The notes under the pieces are model-generated. The model ran no database searches and was not told the DNA's origin. It saw only the letters and a program-made list of their open reading frames with translations. The position numbers and the translations under genes were made by a program. Below are positions 936-53,611 of a stretch of 64,000 nt of DNA, one piece after another. Numbering within the stretch: position 1 is the stretch's first letter; the number at the start of each line of letters is the position of its first letter. The stretch comes from Ianthella basta (Eukaryota; Porifera; Demospongiae; Verongiida; Ianthellidae): NCBI GenBank assembly GCA_964019415.1, contig OZ025878.1:7026535-7090534 (forward strand), in the 5' to 3' direction.

Positions 936-3900
936 ATGGCGTCGAAAGGTGAGCTTCCTATTATTGAGCCTTGATTTAACTTGGGACTGGCTAGCACAGA
1001 GACTCGCTAATGTGTGTCGTGTGCAGCCGCGCGAGGCACTGCGCACAGAGAACATCTGCATGACCAAGGCGCGTAGCTAGCTATGTACTTGTCACTTTTA
1101 GACAATGTATCGTCAGCTACATGTAGCTATAGTAAAAGTATAAACATATCCAAATTTCCTACCTTATATTATCTAGTAGCATTGTATCAAGATATATCAC
1201 AGCGCCCTCCTTCCAGAACCTCCGGGTCCAGCCTCCCAATGAGCAAGTGGAACAAAGATGCCCTGATCTCTTTGGAACGAGACCTAAAGATCAATGTCAA
1301 CCCTGACGAGCTGATTGATCTTTTGGAGGTGCCAGCTGGTGGGTTCATGACTGAGGGTGAGAGGATGTCAGTGTGTGAACAGCCGAACCGAAGAGAGAAG
1401 GTGGGACGCATCATCACCCTCTTGCGGGGTAAGGGGGACCGGGATTTTGACATCTTCATGAAACTGTTGAGGAAGAGTGGCAATGAGGTGTGGGCAGGGC
1501 AGCTAGAGGAGAAGGTTTGGCTTATCAAGACTGATCCACAAGGAGGTGGGCGGAACACTTCTTTGAATAAATGGAATGTTTGTACCATGTTTGCACACAC
1601 TGTGTGGGAGTTGTCAGTGGGAGATGTTAGGTATGCAGGCACTTCAGCAATAAAATAACGTTCTGACTCATTGTTTGCCACAACCATTTCAGTATATTGT
1701 GTGTGTGTGTGTGTGTGCATATATGTGTGTGTGTATGTGCATGTGCATGTGGGTGTGCATGCGTGCAACTCTGTGGTCATGAGCAGAGTAACTTAGGTAA
1801 TTGCCAATTGGGAAATACACTGTATATTGTAACTCAGCAACATGGTGATTCTCCCTACAGAGTATGGAGATCCGCCAATTGGTGAAGTCAAACAAGTAAT
1901 GAATACCACTGTAGTGCAGGCTTCTGCAGCTTCTGAAGTGTCAAGTGGCCATCTCACAGGTTAGTGAATAACAAAATGACAATTCTGGAATAATAGGCTA
2001 TACACTGGGGATTGGGTGTGTGCATGCGTGTGTGTGTGTGTGTGTGTGTGTGTGTGTGTGTGTGTGTGTGTGTGTGTGTGTGTGTGTGTGTGTGTGTGTG
2101 TGTGTGTGTGTGTGTGTGTGTGTGTGTGTGTGTGTGCGCGCGCGCGTATGTGTGTGTGTGTGTGTGTGTGTGCGCGCGCGCATATGTGTGTGTGTGTGTG
2201 TGTGCATGTGTGTAGGTGTGTGTGTGTGTGTAGTGTGTGTGTATGTGTGCATGTGTATATGTGTATGTGTGTGCATGTGTGCGCATACGTGTGCTTCTGT
2301 GGGTACCAATCTCACAAGAATTTATTTACAGTGGCAGGCACCCCTTTGTGCATTCATCTGTTGAACAGGATAGCACCAAAGCATGAAGGTGATTGCTTTG
2401 TCCTCATCTCCTCTTTCCAGCCAAGTCAAGAAAGAAAATGTTAGATGAAGAATGTGATTATGTCTGTAAAGGTACAGTTGCCATTTGAGCATGATATTGT
2501 TTAAGAAATTGTATTATACTTGTAAATTATCAATCTGAAATTCTCATTGAAATCCTCCGTATACCCCTCCCTTCTTCCTTTTCACAAGTTATATTGCTTG
2601 GAGAGTCTGGTGTGGGTAAGTCCAATCTCCTTTCATGCTACACTCGAAACATGTTCAATTTGAAAGCAAGACCAACTGTTGGAGTGGACTTTGACTGCAA
2701 AATCCTTGAAATAGAATCCAAAGCAATCAAGGCTTACATATGGGACACAGGTTTGTAGCTACTTGGCTTAGTTCCATAACCACTTCCTCCTGCCTGTTCA
2801 GCGTTTTCATATAAACCTCTTCCTGCAGTCTTCTGTCTCCTCTGCTCTTTTGTCATCTTCCCCATGTGCCCCTTCCCTTTCCAAAGTAGTCTGTGATAGT
2901 GTATCGTAATTTTACACTCCCTTTGTTCATTGTTGATGCAAGTGTGGATGCATGTGTACATGTATTCCAGTACATGCAATGAGTGTTCTGGACAAGTGTA
3001 TATATACATCCTTACCATTGCTATGTTGTACAATTGACTTCACTGTCATTCAAAATGTCTGGCATCTCCGAATGTATTCTTCAAATTTGGAGTATTGCTG
3101 TATGCATATGTGAAGCCAAAGATTGGTTGTTTTCTGTTACAATGGTTGTGTGATGCATCTTTGCACTATCTGTTTCTGCAGCTGGTCAAGAGAGATTTAG
3201 ATCTGTCACCACCTCGTACGTTGGGCATCTGTGTCTATATTGGGGGGGGGCATACTCATGCTTTGTAATGTAGTATGTACAGACTGTCAGTTTTTCAGTT
3301 TTCTTTAAACTGTGCCTCTCTGTGCACCTTGTGGTGTCAGCCTCTTACCTCTCTTAACCCTCCTTTAATCTTGTTGATCTATACACATTTTGTCTCCCCA
3401 CCTTCAACCTTCCTCCCCATATAAACATGCAGGTACTATAGAGAAATTCATGGTGCTGCACTTATATATGATATCACGAATCTTAACTCCTATAAGAAAC
3501 TGGTAAGTGGTTGGCGGAGCTGAGAGACCGCTCACACTCAAGCATTGTCACCATGTTGGTAGGGAACAAGTGTGACCTGAGACAGAAACAAGCTGTGGTC
3601 ACAAGAGAAGCAATAGCTTATGCCGAGAAGAACTCCATGTTGTTCTGTGAAACATCTGCCAAGGATGGTACAGGTGTTGAGGCCGCATTTCACAACTTTC
3701 TGACAAGTCAGTGGCACACATGCTTTCACTGTATATGTATCACTTATACATGTGGTAGCAAGGAGGACAATATGGTTTGGAAAGGGACTGGAAATAATAC
3801 AATTATATGCAGCAACTTAAAGGTGAAGTCGAGCTGTATTCTAACCCGCATCCTCCTTCTTGCTACTGTAATTGTAAGGATCTGTAAGAAGTTGGCTGTG

Positions 3901-52600: not shown

Positions 52601-53611
52601 ATGCGCGCACACAGCGTATTCACGGGAGAACTGGTGAGATGATTGCACTCGATTGTCAGCCGTTTTCTGTGGCTGAGGACCAGGGCTTCAGGCAATAGAT
52701 CAAAGAAACCAAGGTGCACATTGTGAAGCAAAAATTGGAATATCGGATCAGTAGCGGCACTTAAAAATCGGAAACCGGATAATCGGTAAAAATCTATATC
52801 GGTGCAACTCTGATTTCTGGGATTATAAACATACGTATAGGTGTACAACACATTGAATTTCTAGCCACTTGAAACTCATGCATGTCTAAGTGATGCCATG
52901 GGACCCCAACCTGCAAGAACATCAAGCAAGTAAAGGCTTATAGCTATACAAAGGCGCATGACATAAGAAAATTGGCCAAGGTGTAGTCAAAAATGAAGTT
53001 CTTTTAGTGCATGCGAGTACTTGCAGCAGTGTGATATCCTCTGTAGCTGAACAGCCGAAGACATACGTACCTGGGGTAGACTGGTTAATGCACAGGGAAC
53101 TATGGCACTTACGTATGCACCTACAACACACTCACAATTGGTTGCTCTGATCTGTTAAATACATTCTGTACAGCCTTGAGTAATTGAACCAAGCCAAGCC
53201 CGACTCCAGCCCCACCATGCTACATAGCTCAGGACATGCTCTATATCACTAGTCCTCCCAGTGGTGCAATGTTATACTATGGGCAGGTGCATGTGATACC
53301 CCTTGCTGTAGAGACCCTACACCCTGCTGCACATGTTCTGGAGGCCACAAATCTCAGAGACACGTGCACCTCTTGGTCAGCAGCAAATGCATTATTGTAG
53401 TGCATGCCTAGTCATTTTCATCCCTATAACCTGCTGTTTTTTGCATCTTCTCTCACCTGCTCTCTGTGTATCAGATGCATATCAAAGTAAGAACCTCATT
53501 ATGGCAATATCCCATTGCCAAGAACGGAATACGAGCAACTTGCAATTGTCAGTGCCCCAGTCTCCACTGCCATCACCACAGGGGAGGAAACGCTGCTGCA
53601 AACAGACATAA
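40639..53611 (+). CDS. Gene 6: CARD-Rab GTPase fusion interrupted by intronic transposons
   Basis: Predicted exons are 40639-40651 (MASS plus one base), 41049-41423 (CARD), 50435-50470 ([12 protein letters not shown]), 50596-50757, 50965-50998, 51702-51976 and 53475-53611. The CARD core is [20 protein letters not shown]. The GTPase reads [30 protein letters not shown] and EASAKD. The tail ends KRCCKQT (CCXXX). The exon set and tails pair with gene 3, so these two are sister duplicates. The 9-kb intron between the CARD and linker exons contains a gypsy element, an extra 1.7-kb block and a reverse-transcriptase fragment. The last intron contains a hAT element. The reading frame itself appears unbroken. 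Confidence 0.75.
41645..43375. mobile_element. 1.7-kb block present in gene 6 but absent from the matching gene 3 intron
   Basis: Gene 3 runs directly from the equivalent of 41630 ('gtgtatcatac.gttat') to the equivalent of 43378 ('gcttacagttaccactgcag', at about 15908). Within the block 'ggacatgtc...tgtttacaca' and 'gtgaattcctgtgttgcca' occur more than once, and a relative lies at 24906-25030. No protein is recognised and no clean target duplication was found, so it may be a composite of small elements. Confidence 0.5.
44456..44616. repeat. 161-nt hairpin inside the gypsy element
   Basis: Arms 44456-44527 and 44545-44616 (72 nt each) are near-perfect inverted copies ('ggttggttctctaataccag' against 'ctggtattagagaaccaacc') with a 17-nt loop. 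They lie just downstream of the integrase region. The pattern suits template switching during reverse transcription. Confidence 0.85.
44580..46924 (-). pseudogene. gypsy pol remains (reverse transcriptase, RNase H, integrase)
   Basis: The reverse transcriptase is split by at least one stop near 46480. One piece has [15 protein letters not shown] and [14 protein letters not shown]. The next has [15 protein letters not shown] and [10 protein letters not shown], the catalytic DD box. RNase H shows [15 protein letters not shown] and ETDHKPL. Integrase shows a zinc-binding HxGIQRC...CPTC pattern, then [11 protein letters not shown] and the downstream Glu in [10 protein letters not shown] of the DDE triad. 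Several frameshifts separate these blocks. Confidence 0.85.
46890..47890 (-). pseudogene. gypsy gag and protease remains
   Basis: The minus-strand frame at 47507-47887 has the charged helical character of a gag capsid region. [15 protein letters not shown] zinc knuckle lies at about 47285-47330. The frame at 46890-47159 carries LDTGAEVTA, the active-site DTG of a retroviral-type aspartic protease. The segments are in different or interrupted frames. Confidence 0.7.
48272..49040. other. Intronic DNA of gene 6 with dispersed-repeat remains
   Basis: A hairpin CACTTGCAAGAAAGC/GCTTTCTTGCAAGTG lies near 48296-48332. Positions 48550-48650 are the reverse complement of 18713-18800 ('ccatagcaatgatatggggc'), a shared dispersed repeat. 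I see no supported gene. Confidence 0.45.
49045..49173. repeat. (TG)n microsatellite
   Basis: About 130 nt of pure TG, immediately before a retroelement-like frame. Confidence 0.95.
49174..49536 (+). pseudogene. Non-LTR-type retroelement C-terminal fragment
   Basis: About 120 codons are open after the TG tract. They contain [36 protein letters not shown] and VGSRGFLDV. From memory, this is the RPD..W / ELTV..E / RK..KY / VGSRG signature of the endonuclease-like domain that follows reverse transcriptase in many animal retroelements. No reverse transcriptase precedes it, so it is a truncated copy. The TG tract may have been the insertion site. Confidence 0.65.
49931..50228. repeat. Very long (TG)n microsatellite, about 300 nt
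   Basis: Essentially pure TG with one C interruption near 50144. It lies about 205 nt before the acceptor of the gene 6 linker exon, the position where gene 3 has a 90-nt tract. Confidence 0.97.
51281..51331. repeat. 51-nt hairpin in gene 6
   Basis: GTGGTCTTGGTCAACTGCTTAC pairs with GTAAGCAGTTGACAAAGACCAC around a short 'agtgtga' loop. It is intronic. Confidence 0.75.
52102..52812 (-). mobile_element. hAT-family DNA transposon remnant encoding a BED zinc finger
   Basis: The ends are inverted (TAAAGTTGCACCGATA at left; TATCGGTGCAACTCTG at right, which reads CAGAGTTGCACCGATA inward). They are flanked by an 8-bp duplication ATTTCTGG (52094-52101 and 52813-52820); 8-bp duplications are typical of hAT elements. 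Minus-strand frames at 52188-52610 contain [18 protein letters not shown] and, after a break, [15 protein letters not shown]. These are the aromatic W-x-YF start and His-x4-His end of a BED finger, the usual hAT transposase N-terminus. No catalytic domain remains in 711 nt. Confidence 0.85.

Follow-up and report, generated by a model that had tools for sequence, protein, structure and literature searches.

A window of 64,000 nucleotides from the sponge Ianthella basta (bases 7,026,535 to 7,090,534 of contig OZ025878.1, here C11, in a genome of 209 Mb and 96 contigs) lies in a tandem array where copies of a Rab11 gene have probably become fused behind the 5′ end of a CARD gene, making a joined CARD-Rab11 protein. 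Proteins known to carry CARDs include caspases, adaptors, and NLR, RLR, and GBP proteins; Rabs are master switches of membrane identity. A first-pass annotation of the window had proposed five plus-strand genes built on one plan, from a short start exon through a CARD exon and Rab exons to a prenylatable tail. Genes 2, 3, and 5 follow this plan as complete models; gene 1 carries a frameshift and gene 4 lacks the CARD splice donor, and neither is a clean fusion gene.

The five CARD exons of the window, at positions 1239, 6860, 15369, 35586, and 41117, are each followed by Rab exons on the plus strand. Genes 2, 3, and 5 have seven exons each, with GT-AG borders throughout, and join in frame with phases 1, 1, 1, 1, 2, and 1 at the six joins. 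Gene 2 (6324 to 13367) comprises exons 6324–6336, 6774–7166 (CARD), 9844–9894, 10079–10240, 11004–11037, 12596–12870, and 13225–13367, ending in HCPCK. Gene 3 (14748 to 31023) comprises exons 14748–14760, 15304–15675 (CARD), 24320–24355, 24495–24656, 24867–24900, 29901–30175, and 30902–31023, ending in KSCCK, and gene 5 (40639 to 53611) comprises exons 40639–40651, 41049–41423 (CARD), 50436–50471, 50596–50757, 50965–50998, 51702–51976, and 53475–53611, ending in KRCCKQT. Elsewhere in the array, a paralogue at C11:6985281 forms a complete six-exon model. For the 6937 copy no first exon was found, but from the CARD exon to the stop (end KKCCNRN) its exons join in frame at GT-AG borders; the 6957 copy joins from the CARD through the third Rab exon, with no tail found.

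At the level of sequence, the fusion of CARD and Rab is strongly supported by splice phase, by the lost Rab start codon, and by a short CARD-Rab intron in one copy. A phase-1 GT precedes the in-frame stop in 12 of the 13 CARD exons of the array, gene 4 being the exception; by a simple score, some of the donors are weak (from 2.1). The first Rab-side exon of genes 2 to 5 and of the 6986 copy has an acceptor and no Met, either in the exon or in the upstream open frame; the start codon of the parent-like Rab11 gene described below sits in the matching exon. The CARD-Rab intron is shortest in the 6937 copy (88 bases), followed by the 6985 copy (480) and the 6957 copy (790); the five others measured have 2.5 to 9.0 kb. 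The 13-nucleotide first exons of the first-pass annotation were recovered at 936, 6324, 14748, and 40639, and in gene 4, the unit at 35472, a MASK start is continuous with the CARD exon. A search of all 209 Mb with the pattern of this start exon plus donor gave 13 matches (a reversed-pattern control gave 0); nine lie in the array, eight of these 0.3 to 0.9 kb 5′ of a CARD exon, and one more lies on contig C6, 0.5 kb 5′ of a close CARD relative. The start exon thus appears to travel with the CARD.

The GTPase half is of Rab11 type, in agreement with the Rab call of the first-pass annotation. The joined gene 3 matches the Ras family (E value 9.6e-54), and its Rab-11A score (6e-59) is ahead of that of Rab-1B (9.5e-47). 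A Rab11-like, parent-like gene at 6,897,405, with an exon reading ...MTGKEDEYDYLFK, has its own start codon and no CARD; it joins into a complete Rab11 with the exon borders of the CARD-Rab genes and the tail CTCKKT. Genes 2 to 5 retain the P-loop, DTAGQ, NKxD, and SA(K/L) motifs together with the cysteine pair; GTP binding and membrane anchoring would therefore be expected of their products. Judged from sequence, the C-terminal cysteine motifs of genes 1 to 5 (CRCKKT, CPCK, CCK, CNC, and CCKQT) agree with the prenylatable tail that had been predicted. In genes 2 to 5 and two paralogues, 12 to 16 of the 19 switch II residues match the parent-like gene, and switch I keeps 3 to 5 of 9; because of the latter, the effectors of CARD-Rab proteins may differ from those of Rab11.

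The CARD assignment of the first-pass annotation also held. Pfam CARD (PF00619) accepts four of the five window exons and the joined gene 3 at its curated cut-off, gene 2 falling below it (15.8 versus 23.9), and structural comparison (VIA-align 2 on the top chains from Foldseek) finds a six-helix death-fold bundle. A profile seeded from two window copies, and hence built from the array itself, recovers all 13 array CARD exons at an E value of 3e-50 or better. Pairwise ratios of nonsynonymous to synonymous substitution (dN/dS, NG86) across 12 CARD exons are 0.11 to 0.49 in all 65 pairs with non-zero dS, out of 66. For the Rab exons, pairs above 55% identity mostly give 0.2 to 0.7; values near or above 1 occur, as in R6908 versus gene 4 (first Rab exon, 1.00) and in some close pairs with dS of 0.02 to 0.16. 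False translation, considered for the CARD exons, was rejected on the basis of dN/dS and structure.

Several observations weigh against a joined protein. No cDNA or spliced protein with CARD-Rab was found, and a protein search with the CARD region at 0.55 to 1.75 times the fusion length gave one match, P0001, an unspliced open reading frame on a metagenome contig. All copies are paralogues, so their matching phases are not independent trials. The first Rab-side exon keeps a Met in gene 1, its 6972 twin, and the 6938, 6958, and 6981 copies, so a separate Rab start could be used there, including in the copy with the 88-base intron. CARD-to-Rab introns of 2.7 to 9.0 kb leave room for separate promoters in genes 2, 3, and 5. 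The Met opening the CARD is invariant in all 37 sequences of the alignment (5 window copies plus 32 of the 42 database proteins), and translation may therefore begin at it. After the CARD exons at 6961172 and 7018471, the next CARD comes without a Rab exon in between. Finally, the third Rab exon of gene 1 is frameshifted near 3500, and the CARD donor of gene 4 reads ACGAAG|ttaagt, without GT; its near-identical paralogue at C11:6985281 has the intact donor ACGAAG|gtaagt.

Exon positions in the two damaged genes are as follows. Gene 1 (936 to 4645) has its start exon at 936–948, a CARD exon at about 1177–1545, an extra linker exon at 1861–1959, a Rab-side linker exon at 2421–2471, Rab exons at 2589–2750, 3182–3215, and from 3433, and a tail at 4512–4645. 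Gene 4 (35472 to 38916) has its start-fused CARD exon at 35472 to about 35890, followed by exons 36372–36425, 36836–36997, 37797–37830, 38085–38359, and 38783–38916, ending in NSCNC.

Three other readings of the array were weighed. The CARD exon could be a skippable cassette, with alternative splicing yielding both CARD-Rab and CARD-less Rab from one gene. Since the CARD exon is phase 1-1, skipping it and joining the 13-nucleotide exon directly to the Rab-side exon would keep the frame. The constraint on the CARD exon shows no more than that the exon is in use for at least some of the time. We regard this arrangement as unlikely, although it is compatible with the fusion rather than opposed to it.

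Somewhat less likely, short CARD-only genes and Rab11-like genes may have been amplified together as a two-gene unit and never spliced to each other. The order of exons says little here: after 11 of the 13 CARD exons a first Rab exon comes ahead of any further CARD, but in a tandem array of non-independent copies such alternation proves nothing alone. Consistent with separate genes, two CARD exons lack a Rab partner, gene 4 has no CARD donor, a Met survives in some Rab-side exons, the genome has at least 137 more matches to the array CARD outside the array, and every CARD donor is followed by an in-frame stop at a distance of a few bases to about 0.4 kb. Yet 12 of 13 CARD exons retain the phase-1 donor, the Rab-side exon of genes 2 to 5 has an acceptor in place of a Met, one copy has a CARD-Rab intron of just 88 bases, and four genes join completely in frame, with a fifth doing so from the CARD exon onward. 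Least likely, the fusion occurred and the array is now mostly decaying, with few or no functional copies: stops, frameshifts, or lost signals do affect genes 1 and 4, the 6971, 6978, and 7014 copies, and the remnant at 32378, but four models are complete and open, G motifs and cysteine pair are retained, and CARD dN/dS is well below 1.

In the fusion scenario, the sequence, splice signals, phases, domain identity, and CARD-exon constraint are the observed part. A Rab11 gene would have undergone tandem duplication, with at least one copy landing behind the 5′ end of a CARD gene, consisting of the 13-nucleotide start exon and the phase 1-1 CARD exon. The CARD exon would then splice to the first Rab-side exon, which in several copies would since have lost its start codon. 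The predicted product, of about 340 to 360 residues, would comprise a short Ser/Thr/Pro-rich lead, the CARD, a short charged linker, a Rab11-type GTPase, and a C-terminal cysteine pair. We infer that a joined transcript is made and that the tail is geranylgeranylated; GTP loading might then place the protein on Rab11 (recycling-endosome) membranes, where crowded CARDs could seed or recruit those of caspases or NLR-type sensors and so connect membrane traffic with innate immune or death signalling. Such an immune scaffold role gains weight from the finding that the same kind of CARD heads NACHT domains in this genome. If it is real, a prenylated CARD-Rab protein would connect endosome identity directly to death-fold signalling under the control of GTP, and the array would be a natural case of exon shuffling in which an NLR-type CARD was moved onto a trafficking gene within a birth-and-death array.

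A different role, which we consider rather improbable, is that the array encodes CARD-armed Rab11 decoys. The Rab11-like part, its switch regions drifted from those of the parent, would serve as bait; a pathogen factor would modify, cleave, or mislocalise it, and the NLR-type CARD would signal. The same phase 1-1 CARD exon would also stand before Smad MH1, Death-like, and NACHT exons. If so, one CARD exon would be a general plug by which trafficking or signalling proteins become immune reporters, an animal counterpart to integrated-decoy receptors.

A search of the genome with one window CARD gave at least 150 matches, 13 in the array and at least 137 outside. Among the 150 matches listed, at least 24 have a same-strand NACHT exon within 10 kb downstream and none has one upstream, a count that used 54 of the 102 NACHT rows. 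A further CARD-NACHT case was read directly (L044; NACHT E value 4.6e-22). Of 469 NACHT candidates, 102 were scored and listed as matches, and none of these lies in the array. On C6, the exon after a CARD relative is Death-like, scoring slightly below the cut-off (L037; 19.0 versus 22.6 bits). On the minus strand of contig C8 (L038; 759000–763000), a CARD exon 75% identical to those of the array, with phase-1 borders, is followed after about 0.6 kb by a Smad MH1 exon (E value 4.9e-39) that has a phase-1 acceptor and its own Met. The phases match by eye, and this may be a CARD-Smad gene. Smad MH1 exons are not known outside animals. Within the array, Death-domain exons at C11:7011123 and C11:7024616 (L029 and L030) are identical in their last 76 residues. 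Since one of them sits 5.9 kb after the partnerless CARD at 7018471, that unit may be CARD-Death.

Among database proteins, the CARD profile search gave 41 (42 in the set overall), and 36 have the full CARD core. Seven of the 36 are letter-identical to sequence within the 260 kb that we read in detail, and 29 are not. The 29 include P0014, with 82% identity to the gene 3 CARD on a contig of about 0.6 Mb, and P0018, with 80% on one of about 0.5 Mb; because they are absent from the 260 kb and their contigs are long, CARD exons of this sort probably also occur in another individual or species. No relative was found in the prokaryote genome contigs and viral contigs scanned.

Ras-family matches span C11 from about 6.898 to 7.208 Mb, and the part read in detail runs from 6.890 to 7.150 Mb. 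There, profiles seeded from window copies matched 13 CARD exons; the first Rab exon accounts for 22 rows and the third for 33, fragments included, and all matches lie on the plus strand. CARD exons are confined to 6.937–7.068 Mb, and CARD-less Rab exons flank that stretch on both sides. Near-identical pairs, damaged copies, and a CARD-less copy beside fused relatives suggest that the array grows and decays by duplication. In a tree of 13 array Rabs, three of nine inner branches are well supported, and the CARD label requires 4 changes against a shuffled mean of 4.3, which does not decide between a single and a multiple origin of the fusion. The CARD-less copy at C11:7000468 is nested among fused copies in this tree and may have lost its CARD end. 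By eye, its Rab-side exon has no in-frame Met.

Searches of the CC-licensed PMC literature, judged partly by title and in one case drawing mostly cardiac papers, gave no CARD-Rab or CARD-Ras-type family, and the family is apparently undescribed; the first-pass annotation likewise knew of none. Multidomain Rabs and CARD-GTPases are already known kinds of protein; a CARD on Rab11 appears to be a new combination. The large Rabs Rab44, Rab45/RASEF, and Rab46/CRACR2A-L likewise add an N-terminal signalling part to a C-terminal Rab, but that part is an EF-hand and coiled coil (PMC8303950) rather than a CARD on a Rab11-type domain. The term "card" occurs 0 times in that review, and gene 3 has no EF-hand among Pfam families at E values up to 1. 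In zebrafish Gbp3 and Gbp4, a CARD is also joined to a GTPase, but there a GBP-type GTPase carries the CARD C-terminally, whereas here a Ras/Rab GTPase carries it N-terminally; Gbp4 acts with Asc in inflammasome signalling and requires GTPase activity (PMC4932187). Gbp4 is the nearest working counterpart known to us. NLRCs (CARD-NACHT-LRR) are described in sponges such as Dysidea avara (PMC12909245). CARD exons of this kind also stand at the head of NACHT genes in this genome, but in the array a Rab takes the place of the sensor part, and the Pfam matches of gene 3 at E values up to 1 include neither NACHT nor LRR. Canonical Rab11 shares the exon plan, G motifs, and cysteine-pair tail but not the CARD, which the parent-like gene, with its own start codon, also lacks.

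The window contains further features around the fusion genes. In gene 2, the third Rab exon and tail are tandemly duplicated (11434–13367): copy 1 (11434 to 12166, with its own tail exon at 12033–12166) has one in-frame stop, and the complete model takes copy 2 at 12596. A Rab-only remnant on the plus strand (32378 to 34557) has a G1 fragment at 32378, a degenerate G2 at 32786, G3 at 33019, and a tail at 34412–34557. A Rab-only array member (plus strand, 58410 to 59938) has G1 at 58410 and G3 at 59606, with no CARD exon found between it and the CARD of gene 5. The CARD-to-Rab intron of gene 5 holds retroelement pieces on the minus strand (45797–47396; reverse transcriptase, RNase H-like, and aspartic protease). 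Two long plus-strand open frames of 384 to 385 residues, at 56432–57583 and 61776–62930, encode protein kinase domains (E values 2e-33 and 1e-33); the first lies downstream of gene 5 and the second downstream of the Rab-only gene.

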